Shown here piece after piece: positions 41,320 through 51,273 of a DNA stretch of 64,000 bases. Each line of letters starts with the position of its first letter. Position 1 is the stretch's first letter. Under the pieces are notes generated by a model that ran no database searches, had not been told where the DNA came from, and saw only the letters and a program-made list of their open reading frames with translations. Made by a program: the position numbers and the translations under genes. Origin of the DNA: Streptomyces sp. AM 2-1-1 (GTDB lineage Bacteria > Actinomycetota > Actinomycetes > Streptomycetales > Streptomycetaceae); contig NZ_CP119147.1 of the NCBI RefSeq assembly GCF_029167645.1, positions 4,172,501 to 4,236,500 on the forward strand, written 5' to 3'.

Positions 41320-41829
41320 GTGACACATCCACAGCCCGGCGAGCGACGTGACGGAGCCGGGCGCGTTCCCCGTACCCGGGCTTTCAGCACCCGGGCTTTC
41401 AGCACCCGGGCTTTCCGTACCCGGGCGGTCGCCGCCGCGGCGGCCGTACTGACCGTCGCCGCGGCCCTCTCCGTCCGCGCGCTCGCCGGCGGGGGGTTCG
41501 CCAAGTACGCCGGCGACGCGCTCTACACCGTGCTGGTCCACGCCCTGCTGGTGTTCCTCGCCCCGCGCGTGCGTCCTTTGCTCGCCGCCGGAGGAGCACT
41601 GGTGTTCAGCTGCGCCGTCGAGTTCGCCCAACTGTCGGACGTCCCGGCGCGTTTGTCGGCGCGCTCGGGGGCGGCCCGGCTGGTGCTCGGTTCCACCTTC
41701 AACGCCCCGGACCTGCTGTGGTACGCGGTCGGCGCGGGCGCCGGCTGGTGGGTGCACCGGTGGGCGGGGCGGCGGAGGCCGTCGCGGGCCGTTCAGCCCT
41801 TCGCACGGGACCTCTCCTCGGACTCCTGA
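41320..41829 (+). CDS. DUF2809-family membrane protein
   Basis: This is a 169-residue protein with four to five hydrophobic helices (VAAAAAVLTVAAALSVRALA, LYTVLVHALLVFLAPRV). The family signature is FAKYAGDALYTVLVHALLVF with VEFAQLSDVPARLSARSGAARL and LVLGSTFNAPDLLWYAVGA. Its function is unknown. The first 40 residues carry a TRAFS tandem repeat from a 15-bp minisatellite. GTG 41320 is the only reasonable start in frame but has a weak ribosome site. Its 3' end overlaps the convergent gene at 41793 by 37 bp. Confidence 0.82.
   Translation: MTHPQPGERRDGAGRVPRTRAFSTRAFSTRAFRTRAVAAAAAVLTVAAALSVRALAGGGFAKYAGDALYTVLVHALLVFLAPRVRPLLAAGGALVFSCAVEFAQLSDVPARLSARSGAARLVLGSTFNAPDLLWYAVGAGAGWWVHRWAGRRRPSRAVQPFARDLSSDS
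41374..41418. repeat. Three 15-bp tandem repeats in the DUF2809 gene
   Basis: Units ACCCGGGCTTTCAGC, twice, and ACCCGGGCTTTCCGT, once, are followed by a partial unit. They encode TRAFS/R repeats. Confidence 0.95.
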
Positions 41830-42203
41830 ATCTCCAGGAGCCGCAGCACGTGGGCGGTGGTGCGGCGGCGGGTGCTGCCGGAGACCCAGAGCGCCGCGCC
41901 GGTCACGCCGAACGGCACCGCGAGGCCGAGGATGCCCACGAACTCGGGCCACTGGCGCTCGTCCGCGCAGACGTTCCGGCTCCCCGGGGAGTACACCGAC
42001 GAGATCGGGGCGTCGCACTCCACCTCCCGGGAGCCGGACTCGACACTGGTGGGCACCGTCAGCAGACAGCCCAGCCACACCAGCAGCAGGGCGGCGACGG
42101 CCGTCAGGGCCATGCCCCAGGCAGTCAGTCTCGACGCGCGGCGGTCGAACTCCGTGCGGGCTTCCCAGTACATGGGGTCGGTCCTCGTCTCAGGTCGGAG
42201 CAT
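41793..42203 (-). CDS. Small membrane protein, unknown function
   Basis: This 136-residue protein has two transmembrane helices. The first is at about residues 28-48 (LTAWGMALTAVAALLLVWLG), the second around FVGILGLAVPFGVTGAALWV. The loop between has two cysteines (REVECDAP and RNVCADE) that may lie outside and form a disulphide. A charged tail ends in SEERSRAKG. The start is ATG 42203, or ATG 42173 (MYWEART). No family is recognised. It is convergent, with a 37-bp overlap, with the DUF2809 gene. Confidence 0.75.
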   Translation of the reverse strand: MLRPETRTDPMYWEARTEFDRRASRLTAWGMALTAVAALLLVWLGCLLTVPTSVESGSREVECDAPISSVYSPGSRNVCADERQWPEFVGILGLAVPFGVTGAALWVSGSTRRRTTAHVLRLLEIQESEERSRAKG

Positions 42204-42337
42204 GCGGGCCGTGTCACGCACGACCAGCCCGTCGACAGGCGATCGTACGCACATGCGCACGGCCCGTGGCCCGATCCTTGCGACAGGTGTCCCTCAGGCC
42301 GCTCGTGCGCGCTCCGCCCCCGCCGCATGCTTCTCCC

Positions 42338-43768: not shown

Positions 43769-44179
43769 ATGACGGGGTGGCGCGGTGCGAGCAGGACGAC
43801 GTGGTGGGTGCTGGCCGGGGCCGGGGCGGCGGTGGCGGCCGGACTGCTGGTGTGGGTGACGGCGGCGGACCTGGAGCGTTCCAGTCAGATCGCGGGCGTG
43901 CTCGGCACGGTGGTGGGCGTCGTCGCGCTGGGGGTGGCGTGCCGGCAGCTCCGGGGCGGTACTCCCGCCGGACCCGCACCCGCACCCGTACCCGAATCCG
44001 TACGGGCGGCCGGCGGTTCCAACGCGGCACGCGGCACCATCCGGGCCGCCTCCGCGCACGACACGGCACCCGGCCCCGCGGTCCCCGGAGGGGCGGAGAG
44101 CCCCGGCATCACCGCGACCGGAGGTTCGAACGCGGCCGGCGGCGACATCGACGGCTCGACGGCGCGGCACGGCTCGTGA
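43769..44179 (+). CDS. Two-TM protein with two C-terminal GGSNAAxGxI motifs
   Basis: This 136-residue protein has two transmembrane helices at about residues 11-31 and 40-58, then a Pro/Ala-rich linker. Two copies of a Gly/Ser/Asn motif follow: GGSNAARGTI at residues 82-91 and GGSNAAGGDI at 118-127. The same motif occurs once near the N-terminus of the next gene's product. Its stop overlaps the next start (GTGA), so the two are tightly coupled. The layout (small membrane part plus motif tail next to an NLR-like protein) matches effector proteins of amyloid-motif signalling pairs. That function is inferred, not shown. Confidence 0.82.
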   Translation: MTGWRGASRTTWWVLAGAGAAVAAGLLVWVTAADLERSSQIAGVLGTVVGVVALGVACRQLRGGTPAGPAPAPVPESVRAAGGSNAARGTIRAASAHDTAPGPAVPGGAESPGITATGGSNAAGGDIDGSTARHGS

Positions 44180-46860
44180 AGCGCGAGCCGTCGGCCCCGG
44201 ACACCCCTCCGCCTCCCGGCGTCCTCGCGCACGCGGGTTCCAACGCGGCCGGCCGGGACATCCTCAACTCCGTCGCCCTGCACGTCGCCCACGCCACCCT
44301 GCCGCCCCCGGAGGCCTACGGCCCCATCCCGTCCGGTGCCGTGGGCGACGGGCTGGCGAACGTGCCGCGCGGCACCCTCTTCGTGGGCCGGTCCGCCGCC
44401 CTCGACGCCCTGGACGCGGCGTTCGAGGAGCCGGGCGGGGTGGTACTGCGGGCGGTGAGCGGACTGGGCGGCGTCGGGAAGTCGGCCCTCGCCGCCCACT
44501 GGGCGGCCGAGCACGCCACGGACCGGCTGCGGTGGTGGATCAGCGCCGACAGCGCGGCGGCCGTCGAGACCGGCCTCGCGGGGCTGGCGCGCGCCCTCCA
44601 GCCGGGGCTGGCCGGGCTCCCGCAGGAGTTGCAGCGCGAACGCGCGCTCGCCTGGCTCGCGGCCCACGACCACTGGCTGCTGGTGCTCGACAACGTCGAC
44701 CACCCCGACGACGTACGCCCGCTGCTCGACCGGCTCGGTGGCGGCGGACGGGTCCTGATCACCACCCGCCTCGCCACCGGCTGGCACCGCCTGGCCACCA
44801 CCGTCCGCCTCGGCGTCTTCGACCCCGCCGAATCCGTCGAGCTGTTCCACCGCGTCCTCACCCAGGACGGCCCGCGCGACACCGAAGGCGCCGCCGAGGT
44901 GTGCGAGGAGGTCGGCCACCTGGCGCTCGCGGTCGAGCAGGCCGCCGCGTACTGCCACGAGAACGGCACCACCCCGCGCGCCTACCTCGACATGCTGCGC
45001 TCCTGGCCCGCCGAGACGTACGCGACCGGCGCGGAGACCACCGACGCGGACCGCACGGTGGCCCGGGTCTGGCGCGTCACCCTGGACCGTCTCGCCGACA
45101 CCCCGGTCGCCGGTGACGTGCTGCGGACCCTCGCCTGGTACGCCCCCGACCACATCCCCCGCCTGCTGCTGAACGGGCTCGCCCCGCCGCCCTCGCTCGC
45201 CAAGGCGATCGGCCGGCTGGTGGCCCACAGCATGGTCTCGGTCGGGCCGGACGGTGACCTGTCGGTGCACCGCTTGGTGCAGGCACTCGCCCGCACCTCC
45301 GACCCGGACGACCGGCACCGCGCGGCGGCCGCCGTCGCGGAGGCCCGGGAGAGAGCGACCGACGGACTCCTGAGAGCCGTGCCGGACGAGGAGAAGCCGG
45401 GCACTCCGCGCCTGGGCCGGCAGCTCCTCGTCCACGCCCAGGCGCTGGCCGGGAACAGCCTGCCCGAGGACGATACGGAGGCGATGGCGCAACTGCTGGG
45501 CTGGATGGCGAGTCACCAGCTGGAGCAAGAAGCCCTGGGCACTGCCGCTGCCCTCTTCCGCCGGGCGATGACGGCCCTGATCGCGATCGAGGGTGAGAGC
45601 CACCCGGATCTGTGGACCATCCGGAGCAACCTCGCGGGCATCCGCATGGACCAGGGAGAGCCGGAGCAGGCGGGCGAGCTCCTCGAAGACGTGCTCGCGG
45701 GGATGCGGCGGCTCCTGGGGGAGGACCACCGGCACGTTCTCGGCGTCCGGATCAACCTGGCCAGCGCCGCGTACCGGGCCGGAGACATCGTCCGGGCGGA
45801 ATCCCTCTTCGACCGCGCCCTCGCCGAGGCGCTCCGGATCGGGGGCGCCGAAGACCCGTACACCCTGGACATCAGATACCGCTTGGCCCAGCTGCACGAG
45901 GCACGGGGCGACTACCGGCAGGCGCTGACGCTGCAGAAAGAGGTGCTCGCCGACCGGATGCGCATACTCGGGGACGACCATCTCGACACCCTCTCCTCGC
46001 GCGACGCCCTCGCGTACGTCCACGAGCGGAGCGGGAACCCCGTCCTGGCGGTTCCGTTGCTCCGCAGGAACCTGGACGGCCATCTGCGTCTGCTGGGCGA
46101 GGACCACACCACGACACTCCGTACCCGGAGCCATCTGGCCGAGGTGTACCGGGCGGTGGGCAACACCGGGCGAGCCCTTCTCCTGCACCGCCAGAACCTC
46201 ACCGACGCGGAACGCCACCTGGGCCGGGACCACTCGACGACGCTGGTGTACCGCCACCGTCTGGCGGACTTCTACCAGCAGACGCAGAGGCACGACGAGT
46301 CGGTCCCGCTGTACGAGCACAACGCCGCCGAGCGCACCCGGTTGAACGGCGAGGACGACCCCGACGCGCTGCGTGCCCGCCACCACCTGGCGGTCGCCCT
46401 CGCCGAGGCCGGGGAGCACGAACGCGCGCACGCGCTTCACGAGAAGAGCCTCGCCGACATGACGCGGGTCCTCGGCAAGGAGCACCGCGACACCCTCGTG
46501 GCCCGGTTCAGCATCGCGCAGAACCTTCTCGTCTCGGGCAGACCCGAAGTGGCCCTGCGGATGCACGAGCTGATCGCCGCGGACCGCTCCCGCCTCCTCG
46601 GCCCGGACCACCCGGACACCCTGTCGTCCCGGAGCCAGGTGGCGATGGCCCTCCTCCTGGTCTTCCGCCCGGCGGAAGGGATCGCCCTGCTGGAACGGAC
46701 GGTCGCCGACTGCGCTCGGGCGCTCGGAGCGGACCACCCCCAGACCGTGGCGCTGCGGGAGGACCTCGCCGAAGCGATCGAAACCGTCAGCGGGGCGCTC
46801 GGGCGATCCGGTGCGCGATCTTCACCGCGTCCCGGGCCATCTCGCGGAACATTCCGCTGA
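44176..46860 (+). CDS. NB-ARC / TPR STAND NTPase (NLR-like)
   Basis: This is an 894-residue STAND protein. The N-terminal tail holds AGSNAAGRDILNSVALHVA (residues 20-38), matching the motif of the preceding gene. An NB-ARC domain follows (FVGRSAALDALDAAF; Walker A GLGGVGKS with K102; Walker B HWLLVLDNVD; ITTRLATGW; a LALAVEQAAAY segment). The C-terminal half is kinesin-light-chain-type TPR repeats (LGEDHxxTLxxRxxLA recurs about eight times, for example GEDHTTTLRTRSHLAEVYR). GTG 44176 overlaps the previous stop. It is probably a ligand-gated switch that oligomerises. The 3' end overlaps the convergent monooxygenase by 74 bp. Confidence 0.92.
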   Translation: MKREPSAPDTPPPPGVLAHAGSNAAGRDILNSVALHVAHATLPPPEAYGPIPSGAVGDGLANVPRGTLFVGRSAALDALDAAFEEPGGVVLRAVSGLGGVGKSALAAHWAAEHATDRLRWWISADSAAAVETGLAGLARALQPGLAGLPQELQRERALAWLAAHDHWLLVLDNVDHPDDVRPLLDRLGGGGRVLITTRLATGWHRLATTVRLGVFDPAESVELFHRVLTQDGPRDTEGAAEVCEEVGHLALAVEQAAAYCHENGTTPRAYLDMLRSWPAETYATGAETTDADRTVARVWRVTLDRLADTPVAGDVLRTLAWYAPDHIPRLLLNGLAPPPSLAKAIGRLVAHSMVSVGPDGDLSVHRLVQALARTSDPDDRHRAAAAVAEARERATDGLLRAVPDEEKPGTPRLGRQLLVHAQALAGNSLPEDDTEAMAQLLGWMASHQLEQEALGTAAALFRRAMTALIAIEGESHPDLWTIRSNLAGIRMDQGEPEQAGELLEDVLAGMRRLLGEDHRHVLGVRINLASAAYRAGDIVRAESLFDRALAEALRIGGAEDPYTLDIRYRLAQLHEARGDYRQALTLQKEVLADRMRILGDDHLDTLSSRDALAYVHERSGNPVLAVPLLRRNLDGHLRLLGEDHTTTLRTRSHLAEVYRAVGNTGRALLLHRQNLTDAERHLGRDHSTTLVYRHRLADFYQQTQRHDESVPLYEHNAAERTRLNGEDDPDALRARHHLAVALAEAGEHERAHALHEKSLADMTRVLGKEHRDTLVARFSIAQNLLVSGRPEVALRMHELIAADRSRLLGPDHPDTLSSRSQVAMALLLVFRPAEGIALLERTVADCARALGADHPQTVALREDLAEAIETVSGALGRSGARSSPRPGPSRGTFR

Positions 46861-49156: not shown

Positions 49157-49741
49157 CTACAGGCCCGGCGCCCCCCACACCGGGAACCACCGGGCCAGCT
49201 CCTTCTCCACCCGCAGGTCGTCCCCGAGTGCGGCGCGGACCTGGAGCTCCAGGCCGTTGTCCCGCTTCTCCCCGGCGCCGGTGAGCGGGGCGAACGGGTA
49301 GAAGGTGCCGCGCTTGTAGAGGTACACCAGTGCCAGCGAGCGGCCCTCCGGGTCGCGGAAGCCGATCAGCGAGCAGAGCAGGTGCGGGCCGAAGCCGCCG
49401 TCCTGGAGCAGTGTGTTCACCGCGTGCAGGTCGTTGACGAGGGCGGCCAGGTCGTCCGGGGGCTGCTGCGCGAGCAGCCAGGTGTAGCCGTACGCGTCCT
49501 GGCTGATCGTGACCGGTTCCCCGCCCCGGCCCGTGTCGGCGTCCAGTAGCTCTCGTACGTCGTCCTGGAGGCGGGCGAAGGTGCCGCCCTCCACCCCCGC
49601 GAAGCAGACCGAGCCGAGACCGGACGGGGCGAATCCGGTGGCGGCCTGCAGGGTCAGGGCGGCGGACGGTACGGCGAAGAGCTGGTCGAGATCGGGACGG
49701 GCCGGCTTGCTCCGGCCGAGGATCGCGTCGAACAGACCCAC
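49157..49741 (-). CDS. PspA-associated protein PspAB
   Basis: This is a 194-residue cytoplasmic protein starting VGLFDAILGRSKPARPDLDQ with LFAVPSAALTLQAATGF, which I recognise as PspAB, a partner of the phage-shock protein A system in actinobacteria. It ends with PFAPLTGAGEKRDNGLELQ and an RWFPVWGAPGL tail. GTG 49741 has GGAGG nine bases upstream. It lies 95 bp downstream of htpX on the same strand, a known pairing of envelope-stress genes, and is likely co-transcribed with it. Confidence 0.88.
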   Translation of the reverse strand: MGLFDAILGRSKPARPDLDQLFAVPSAALTLQAATGFAPSGLGSVCFAGVEGGTFARLQDDVRELLDADTGRGGEPVTISQDAYGYTWLLAQQPPDDLAALVNDLHAVNTLLQDGGFGPHLLCSLIGFRDPEGRSLALVYLYKRGTFYPFAPLTGAGEKRDNGLELQVRAALGDDLRVEKELARWFPVWGAPGL

Positions 49742-49835
49742 GGAGGTTCCTCCAGGATGACCGGGACCGGCGGGAATCACAGGACTGCGGGAAGCACGGG
49801 ACGTCGGGATTCACTGGACGTCGGGGATGCCGGGC

Positions 49836-50747
49836 CTACGGGCGGGACAGGTCGGCGGAGATGCGGGCCAGCTGGTCGAGGCGCTGCTCCAGCGTCGGGT
49901 GCGAGGAGATCAGCCGGCTGAAGCTCTCCTTCGAGGAGAACGCGGGGACGAAGTAGAAGGCGTTGTACGGCTCAGCTTTCCGCAGGTCCTCGGTGGGTAT
50001 GCGCGCCATCTGCCCGCTGACCTTCGTCAGGGCGGAGGCGAGGGCCGAGGGGCGGCCCGTGAGCAGGGCGGCGGTGCGGTCGGCCGAGAGCTCGCGGTAG
50101 CGGGAGAGCAACCGCGTGAGCAGGAAACTCAGTGCGTAGACGACCGCGCTGATCAACGGGATCAGCATGAGGATGACACCCGCCGGGTCGTTGCCCCGGC
50201 TGTTGCGGGCGAAGCCGCCCCACAGGGCCACTCGGGTGATGATCCCCGCCAGCACGCCCAGGAACGACGCGATGGTCATGACCGCCACGTCCCGGTGGGC
50301 GACGTGCGACATCTCGTGCGCGAGGACACCCTCCAGCTCCTCGGGCTCCAGCCTCCGCAGCAGCCCGGTGGTGGCGCAGACCAGGGCCGTCTTCTCGTTC
50401 CGGCCGGTCGCGAAGGCGTTCGGTACGTCACTCCGCGCGATGGCGACCCGGGGTTTCTCCATGTTCGCCAGGGCGCAGATCCGGTCGATCGCCCCGTGCA
50501 GCTCCGGAGCCTCCTCGGGCGTGACCACGCGGGCCCCCATCCCGTAGGCGGCGATCCGGTCGCTGAACCAGAACTGCACGACGAACAGCCCGCCGGTGAT
50601 GATCAGGATCACCGGCCAGGAGCCGCGCAGCACGGCGAGCAGCACCCCGACGAGGACCACGTACAGCAGACCGATGAAGAACATGGTCGACACCATGCGG
50701 GTGGTCAGGCCCCGGTCGGGGGCGTAACGGGATCTGGCTCTGGCCAT
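49836..50747 (-). CDS. htpX: Zinc metalloprotease HtpX homologue
   Basis: The 303-residue membrane M48 protease has two N-terminal helices (MVSTMFFIGLLYVVLVGVLL and SWPVILIITGGLFVVQFWF). The zinc motif is VLAHEMSHVAHRD (HExxH), followed by more helices (FLGVLAGIITRVALWGG, LILMLIPLISAVVYALSFLL-like). The third ligand region is RYRELSADRTAALLTG. It degrades misfolded membrane proteins in the cytoplasmic membrane. The start is ATG 50747 with GGAGGCA upstream. It is paired with pspAB downstream. Confidence 0.95.
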   Translation of the reverse strand: MARARSRYAPDRGLTTRMVSTMFFIGLLYVVLVGVLLAVLRGSWPVILIITGGLFVVQFWFSDRIAAYGMGARVVTPEEAPELHGAIDRICALANMEKPRVAIARSDVPNAFATGRNEKTALVCATTGLLRRLEPEELEGVLAHEMSHVAHRDVAVMTIASFLGVLAGIITRVALWGGFARNSRGNDPAGVILMLIPLISAVVYALSFLLTRLLSRYRELSADRTAALLTGRPSALASALTKVSGQMARIPTEDLRKAEPYNAFYFVPAFSSKESFSRLISSHPTLEQRLDQLARISADLSRP

Positions 50748-50904
50748 CGGTGCCTCCTGTGCCTCGCCTCGTACGCCTTCCATGGTGCTCCTGCCCGGCG
50801 GAAAGGGGCGGGTCCCCGGGGGAGGCGGCGCCGGATAGCGTGATCGGCGACGTGCGGAGACGTCCGGCGGCCGGACGGCGGACACGGACAGGAGAGAGGC
50901 GACG

Positions 50905-51273
50905 ATGCCGAAGCCCGAGATCGAACCCCCCGCGGGCGATCCGCCCACCGACCTGCTGATCAGGGACCTCGTGGTCGGGGACGGTGAGGAGGCGAGGCGC
51001 GGCCAGGTGGTCTGGGTGCACTACGTCGGGATCACCTTCGCGACGGGCAAGGAGTTCGACTCGTCCTGGGAGCGGGACGAGCCGTTCAAGTTCGCCGTCG
51101 GGGGCGGCCGGGCCATCAAGGGGTGGGACCGGGGCGTCGTCGGCATGAGGGTCGGCGGCCGGCGCGAACTCGTCGTCCCCCCGCGCCTCGCCTACGGCAA
51201 GCAGTCCCCCTCCTCCCTGATCCCCCCGGGCTCGACCCTCGTCTTCGTGGTGGACCTGGTGCGGGTGGCGTGA
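50905..51273 (+). CDS. FKBP-type peptidyl-prolyl cis-trans isomerase
   Basis: The 122-residue protein is one FKBP domain: GQVVWVHYVGITFATGKEFD, SSWERDEPFKFAVGGGRAIK, GWDRGVVGMRVGGRRELVVP and PPGSTLVFVVDLVRV. The active-site residues (Tyr, Asp, Phe, Trp and a final Phe) are all present. It has no signal peptide, so it is cytoplasmic. The start is ATG 50905 after GAGAGAGG. It is divergent from htpX and may help folding under the same stress, by proximity only. Confidence 0.95.
   Translation: MPKPEIEPPAGDPPTDLLIRDLVVGDGEEARRGQVVWVHYVGITFATGKEFDSSWERDEPFKFAVGGGRAIKGWDRGVVGMRVGGRRELVVPPRLAYGKQSPSSLIPPGSTLVFVVDLVRVA

Follow-up and report, generated by a model that had tools for sequence, protein, structure and literature searches.

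How might a bacterial NOD-like receptor (NLR) instruct a membrane protein encoded next to it? The question is raised by a locus of Streptomyces sp. AM 2-1-1. Within the 64,000-nucleotide stretch of contig NZ_CP119147.1 that was analysed (positions 4,172,501 to 4,236,500, hereafter the window), a gene for a small protein with two transmembrane (TM) helices overlaps a gene for a STAND receptor with tetratricopeptide repeats (TPRs), and both proteins carry copies of a short Gly-Ser-Asn motif. Bacterial amyloid-type NLR signalling has been described mainly through one effector domain, Bell, together with ten motif families. We here propose that the pair forms a two-gene NLR signalling module, connected by paired motifs and equipped with a non-Bell two-TM effector, and put the probability of this reading at roughly 0.6. 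That receptor and effector are cognate partners coupled via the shared motif is well supported and very likely, judging from the co-variation of the copies, their position and their absence in fused proteins.

The two open reading frames (ORFs) overlap at GTGA, the small protein joins two TM helices to twin motif copies and the receptor copy begins at residue 20, as a preliminary description made from the sequence alone had stated and as ORF reading, hydropathy and AlphaFold2 confirm. The overlap may couple the translation of effector and receptor. The features, in window coordinates, are as follows.

43769..44179, plus strand: putative effector ORF, a small membrane protein of 136 amino acids (ATG start)
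43787..43864, plus strand: predicted TM helix 1, effector residues 7-32 (hydropathy, AlphaFold2)
43889..43957, plus strand: predicted TM helix 2, effector residues 41-63 (hydropathy, AlphaFold2)
44012..44041, plus strand: effector motif copy 1, GGSNAARGTI, residues 82-91 (conserved in family alignment A1; strands predicted around the copy)
44120..44149, plus strand: effector motif copy 2, GGSNAAGGDI, residues 118-127 (conserved in alignment A1; match to the strict motif pattern)
44176..44179, plus strand: four nucleotides, GTGA, shared by the stop of the effector and the start of the receptor (ORF reading)
44176..46860, plus strand: NB-ARC/TPR STAND receptor, NLR-like, 894 amino acids as read here (GTG start; Pfam, NCBIfam, predicted fold)
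44233..44262, plus strand: receptor motif AGSNAAGRDI, residues 20-29, within the predicted disordered tail 1-36 (match to the strict motif pattern)
44350..45315, plus strand: NB-ARC-type NTPase module, approximately residues 59-380, Walker A GLGGVGKS at 96-103 (Pfam, predicted fold)
45694..46782, plus strand: kinesin-light-chain-type TPR array, putative sensor, approximately residues 507-869 (Pfam TPR_10/TPR_12; PDB sequence matches)

Motif co-variation, rarity and position

If the motif couples the two proteins, the copies on effector and receptor should change together, as the preliminary description had anticipated. We assembled 91 loci from 80 regions at the stronger matches of a hairpin-only profile, the window and ten earlier loci. 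Nine with fused or long-ORF proteins were set aside and six had no candidate partner; for each of the remaining 76 effectors the longest downstream ORF on the same strand, chosen blind to the motif, was taken as partner. Removal of near-duplicates left 62 pairs, including L066, a fusion with a cut frame. The summed local alignment score of effector tail against partner was 3937, compared with a mean of 2695 after re-pairing (standard deviation 138, maximum 3220; 20,000 re-pairings). The own partner ranked first in 16 of the 62 and among the top three in 27 (median rank 5.5), with close relatives competing, and 44 pairs beat at least 99% of 300 shuffles of their own. A second set of 21 pairs, three of them shared with the first (L170-L172), scored 1300 against 891 (standard deviation 53), with 0 of 20,000 re-pairings as high; a 22nd locus of that set, L160, was without a partner. 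With TM and NTPase relatedness controlled, 21 NB-ARC-receptor pairs gave a partial r of 0.79 (0 of 5000), a biased value in that the motifs were taken from matched-pair alignments, and motif segments picked without the partner gave 0.33 for the same pairs (4 of 5000). Both re-pairing tests and the partial correlations thus bear out the expected co-variation. The internal repeat scored above all 30 own shuffles in 49 of 62 effectors, and these twin C-terminal motifs differ widely between loci yet match the N-terminus of their own neighbour.

The motif is also rare. A strict version, searched at the DNA level with degenerate codons for GSNAAG[RG]D[ILMV], had six matches in 199 Streptomyces genomes, and the reversed pattern, used as control, had none. 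The six fall within three genomes, each with one match in an effector and one in the adjacent receptor, and the strict motif was not found scattered among unrelated tails, the possibility that the preliminary description had named as fatal to its proposal. A variant pattern, G[SA]IVAG[GR][DN][IV], had two matches in the 199 genomes, both N-terminal of a P-loop protein. Likeness of the effector and receptor copies is moderately beyond chance for the window pair alone and clearly so across genomes.

Genome searches and pair alignments show that many related receptors have the motif N-terminally and many related effectors have it C-terminally, in line with what had been predicted for the pair. 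Of 1539 receptor relatives, we read the 120 listed (P0025-P0144). A motif expression before Walker A matched in 90 of these; P0136 proved false on reading, and in P0093 another segment was matched although GAIVAGGNV is present. By reading, the 30 non-matching relatives comprise 22 that start at or just after the motif, four with a variant (P0084, P0097, P0101, P0121) and four with another N-terminus (P0103, P0139, P0141, P0143). Databases may hide the motif, because the annotated starts of those 22 (for example P0036-P0039) lie at or just downstream of its position; for P0036, the one case checked, the DNA upstream of the annotated start (L034) encodes GSNAAGRDV. One relative of unusual composition, P0040, has GSNAAGRDV and NB-ARC followed by a lantibiotic dehydratase C-terminal domain, with no TPR match.

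Gene order can be reversed. In five of seven loci looked at (L081, L082, L109, L113, L115) the receptor gene lies upstream, and the motif still stands close to the N-terminus of the receptor and at the C-terminus of the effector; its placement is therefore tied to the proteins rather than to the junction in the DNA. In other loci the two proteins are fused. In L059 and L066 the hairpin is joined to an NTPase whose aligned part shares 42% and 54% identity, respectively, with the window receptor, the L107 fusion matches the receptor across the NTPase (31%) and L112 matches it through the TPRs; further hairpin-NTPase fusions are L116, L121, L123 and L124. In these fusions the hairpin occupies the N-terminal slot of the receptor, and the linkers of all eight TM-NTPase fusions inspected have no motif visible by eye.

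The hairpin family, its motif classes and the receptor

Hydrophobic stretches of the effector (19-residue windows) span approximately residues 12-33 and 38-61, and an AlphaFold2 model built from 24 sequences predicts helices at 7-32 and 41-63 with short strands in or around both motif copies, whose ten-residue blocks have a pLDDT (predicted local distance difference test) of 75-84. A Pfam scan found no family reaching its cut-off and no recognised enzymatic domain. NCBIfam gave a weak PspM-like match (15 bits, cut-off 80), and a PDB sequence search with alignment A1 gave three weak matches (E 0.07-0.12). A protein search with the effector returned 24 proteins, the top one 99% identical and the others including Streptomyces and Embleya proteins. 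Both motif copies are among the best-conserved parts of the family alignment, yet they change together: P0020 and P0021 have GAIAA in both copies and P0015 has GSVAA/GSIAA.

Full-length relatives occur in 25 of 295 genus genomes (E <=1e-3), and the 24-sequence effector profile matches in 21 of 200 family genomes and 5 of 17 genera (E <=1e-8). The hairpin-only profile matches in 107 of 295 Streptomyces genomes (E <=1e-3), a count that includes weak and fused matches, the weakest of which may be false. Phylum-wide, 8 of 346 genomes match (E <=1e-6), five of them in the genus of the window. The other three comprise a match within a long, by reading transporter-like multi-TM protein (L135), one without a visible motif (L136) and a genome with two loci (G491: L134 and L139) that have twin-like tails; at least one of the three looks false.

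A single hairpin family carries several motif classes: GSNAA/GSIAA/GSVAA/GAIVA, RSVAAGGDIG..TGD, ..AAGGDITGNAIG, G.A.A.GG.ANTGV and RHIM-like. The RHIM-like IQIG class is exemplified by L104, with SIQIGQAGGSVRI on the effector and NIQIGCAGGDVNV on the partner, the likeness being judged by eye against the VQVG peptide of PMC8086366 and from recall. Pfam, applied to ten partners of the other classes, finds NB-ARC-TPR in one (L092), NACHT in four (L100, L129, L063, L101), weak STAND or AAA matches in two (L097, L119), no family in L104 and L106 and a TPR-GreA/B-C-PIN protein in the tenth (L084, described below); PADLOC matches two of the ten strongly as STAND_TPR (L119, L063) and three weakly only.

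Several of these loci can be noted individually. In L104, L097, L106 and L103 the hairpin bears motifs that are RHIM-like or rich in Asn and Gln (IQIG, QRSGNDSINLQ), and the product of the following gene has a match to them. The twin class G.A.A.GG.ANTG[VF] is found in L067, L075, L076, L099, L100, L117, L119, L127 and L129, and SNTG/ANSG-type motifs stand near the partner N-terminus in L067, L076, L100, L117, L119, L127 and L129. At L083 and L108 the gene after the effector encodes a matching motif (weak in L083, strong in L108) and, behind it, an apparent TM segment in place of an NTPase.

The genome that contains the window holds a second system with a different matched motif. At G000:C1:2252100-2259100 (L084), a two-TM effector, with a weak hairpin score (E 2.5e-4), carries the twin motifs GSVVAGGNITASAIG and DGIAAGGDITDSALG, and its neighbour, a TPR-GreA/B-C-PIN protein by Pfam, carries GAVVAGGSIIASAVG at its N-terminus. 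Of the four genomes that hold two systems, two (G660 and G632) have distinct motifs, each of which agrees with its own partner, and for one of the systems of G658 no partner motif was found.

The receptor is predicted to have an NB-ARC fold with a Walker A motif, like Apaf-1, CED-4 and plant NLRs. Pfam finds TPRs plus weak AAA_16 and NB-ARC matches in the window protein (NB-ARC 16.7 bits, below the cut-off of 23.5), and three of six scanned relatives pass the NB-ARC cut-off (P0103, P0141, P0040). An AlphaFold2 model of residues 1-430 has a mean pLDDT of 85 and a pTM (predicted template modelling score) of 0.81, and Foldseek matches it to Apaf-1, CED-4 and plant resistosomes and NLRs. The TPRs are of the kinesin-light-chain type in a PDB sequence search.

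Comparison with known signalling systems

The nearest parallel is with bacterial amyloid signalling sequences (BASS), which, according to PMC7889193, PMC8086366 and PMC9815663, are carried by the C-terminus of a Bell effector and the N-terminus of an adjacent NLR. Reviews and follow-up papers, including PMC8086366 and PMC12261475, present Bell as HeLo's counterpart in bacteria, a bundle of helices that includes a hydrophobic TM helix. The window pair resembles BASS systems in its overlapping genes, in the motif at the effector C-terminus and NLR N-terminus, in its occurrence in filamentous actinobacteria and in the existence of several motif families. Unlike them, its effector is a two-TM hairpin of approximately 60 residues with twin motif copies.

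A published BASS3 peptide had matches in 8 of 246 genus genomes (E <=0.1); the effectors there have the motif at their C-terminus, and a BASS3-like copy stands near the N-terminus of the following protein in L140, L142, L143/L148 and L146. We took these effectors as Bell-type from motif and partner, without a Bell reference sequence. Against nine of them (eight distinct), the hairpin profile scored at most 3.1 bits, and hhalign gave a probability of 0.1% for one. Bell membership of the window effector is ruled out by this failed match, Bell identity of the comparison proteins being itself by inference. The claim that the pair has exactly the arrangement of known bacterial amyloid pairs hence holds for motif placement and fails for the type of effector; because the hairpin does not match Bell-type effectors, the window system would work like a BASS pair but without the effector that defines one. 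By eye, the GSNAA motif bears no resemblance to one BASS3 example peptide, BASS3 being the sole family compared of BASS1-10.

In the fungal HET-S/NWD2 pair the effector bears two repeats of the motif and the adjacent STAND protein a single one at its N-terminus (PMC4344463). The same numbers of repeats and a membrane-associated effector recur in the window, whose effector differs in having no HeLo domain recognised by Pfam and a predicted two-helix hairpin instead. With regard to the HET-S/NWD2 beta-solenoid, the window motif copies are predicted as strands, with low pTM and no structural match. Effector-associated domains (EADs) offer another precedent: one copy sits on the core component and another on an adjacent effector, with neighbours most alike (PMC7159879). 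As in EAD coupling, a homotypic module stands on a core NTPase protein and on a neighbouring effector and is most similar between neighbours (PMC7159879 and PMC8195603). EADs are small folded domains, however, unlike the short, tandemly repeated motif of the window, and the Pfam matches of the window pair (E up to 1) include no family by the name of EAD. The fused proteins L059, L066 and L107 combine the same hairpin family with a receptor-like NTPase, but in one polypeptide without a visible motif. The effector/motif pair was not found described in the literature searched, and searches by motif strings returned only unrelated papers; both searches had limited reach and say little about what is in print elsewhere.

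Proposed mechanism, alternatives and surroundings

In the proposed mechanism the TPR array would sense a cue, upon which the NB-ARC NTPase, as its predicted fold suggests, would exchange nucleotide and oligomerise in the manner of Apaf-1, CED-4 and plant NLRs. Oligomerisation would cluster the flexible N-terminal motif tails of the receptor, and the clustered tails would pair with their counterparts, the twin motifs in the presumably cytosolic tail of the two-TM protein, in a cognate homotypic coupling; these two steps together we regard as highly likely. A beta-arch or beta-solenoid nucleus could then template the effector tails, with one receptor copy and two effector copies as in NWD2/HET-S. 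We lean towards amyloid-like templating rather than finite docking at this step. Clustered two-TM hairpins would probably perturb the membrane and cause dormancy or death against an invader.

Coupling could also be achieved by finite homotypic docking, with the motif as a short recruitment plug that, as in EADs, joins a defined complex by beta-augmentation and forms no self-propagating amyloid. We consider this unlikely, even though the co-variation, fusion and position results fit any homotypic coupling, the EAD precedent of neighbouring copies (PMC7159879) speaks for it and the motif is weakly hydrophobic. Against docking stand the length of the motif (approximately 15-20 residues), its duplication on the effector, its prediction as strands, the missing EAD match and the RHIM-like IQIG version borne by the same hairpin in L104. 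In another alternative, the two-TM protein tethers the receptor to the membrane as an anchor or brake, and killing or signalling takes place elsewhere. No enzymatic domain is recognised in the protein and its toxicity is hypothetical, yet the hairpin takes the N-terminal slot of the receptor in fusions. PMC8195603 reports effectors or an EAD in that slot of TPR-GreA/B-C-PIN proteins, and the one in the window's own genome has there instead a motif paired with a two-TM neighbour (L084). We judge an anchor or brake improbable.

The remaining two alternatives have little left in their favour. NCBIfam labels the receptor as the TPR protein of an FxSxx-COOH peptide system (NF040586, FxSxx_TPR; 416 bits, cut-off 300), which would make the small protein incidental, but no radical-SAM or FxSxx component is among the eight neighbouring proteins scanned (39.7-50.9 kb), a scan that could miss a short precursor gene. 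The small protein and its motif are moreover conserved and receptor-matched in other loci, whereas the MFS and FMO flanks of the window were not found in 12 such loci (synteny is not kept), and we hold this reading to be very improbable. That the motif similarity is a by-product of low-complexity tails or of tandem DNA duplication across the gene junction is already contradicted and scarcely credible. In its favour, the tails are rich in Gly and Ala, and the 10-mer score of the window pair taken by itself is attained in 93 of 20,000 shuffles that preserve composition. When the DNA pattern of the motif is made very loose, its 47 matches in the pair's own genome, which include the three copies of the window, do not rise above background (55 matches of the reversed control). 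The strict motif, by contrast, is rare and pair-specific, and its two copies differ synonymously at seven of seven shared codons in G104 and three of seven in G194. Despite the modest single-pair score, chance or low complexity is ruled out by the rarity of the strict motif and the co-variation in both pair sets, and tandem duplication across the junction by the loci with reversed gene order; the eight fusions without a visible motif also argue against a by-product.

Branched aliphatic residues are typical of known signalling amyloids. Several observations weigh against a paired-motif module with amyloid-like templating, among them that the GSNAA motif is poor in such residues and, next to VQVG-type motifs, has little Ile, Val and Gln. 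The effector model has a pTM of only 0.37, with mean pLDDT of the five models from 66.7 down to 52.6, and Foldseek finds no PDB fold match for it; the receptor tail (residues 1-36) has a pLDDT below 50 and is predicted disordered. In the window itself the copies differ synonymously at only one of seven shared codons, which also fits the by-product reading. PADLOC finds no defence family matching effector or receptor, and the eight scanned neighbours include no defence genes. Eighteen of the 62 pairs fall short of the 99% shuffle test: L053 was given the wrong ORF (the true receptor has GSIAAGGDI), L066 is fused, L072 has a broken frame, four have the receptor upstream (L081, L082, L113, L115) and five have at best weak partner motifs (L065, L083, L099, L117, L119), and remaining failures such as L051, L060, L064 and L078 may be orphan effectors. 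At least five of the 21 pairs of the second set (L156, L161, L163, L165, L173) lack a convincing partner motif. The reversed-order loci L113 and L115 rest on position and reading by eye, because their motif scores are barely above those of the next best ORF (49 versus 47 and 48 versus 45). The two systems of G635 have similar motifs, and L085, in which one ORF runs through hairpin and NTPase, retains a motif copy between the two; it may reflect a recent fusion or a change of frame.

A wider reading is tentative, and we rate it at somewhat less than even: a non-Bell two-TM effector, present in up to about one-third of sampled Streptomyces genomes (the 107 of 295 above), may be linked to sensors of the NB-ARC, NACHT and TPR-GreA/B-C-PIN types through exchangeable twin prion-like motifs, which would act as an address code able to insulate parallel death pathways within one mycelium and would usually become dispensable after effector-sensor fusion. 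If true, a simpler membrane effector, with twin motifs that can be swapped, would stand beside Bell as the second of its kind, and the motif would be a portable address. The loci would then supply natural motif-swap and motif-loss cases for the study of templating, along with a minimal membrane executor of 60 residues, and genomes with two differently matched systems would make pathway insulation in prion-like signalling directly testable in Streptomyces.

Some further genes near the pair may be mentioned. A 155-amino-acid ORF on the minus strand (window 41793-42260), with no Pfam family, has one hydrophobic stretch by eye. PspA-associated protein B (PspAB) lies beside an M48 peptidase on the minus strand (window 49157-50948), approximately 2.3 kb downstream of the receptor gene.

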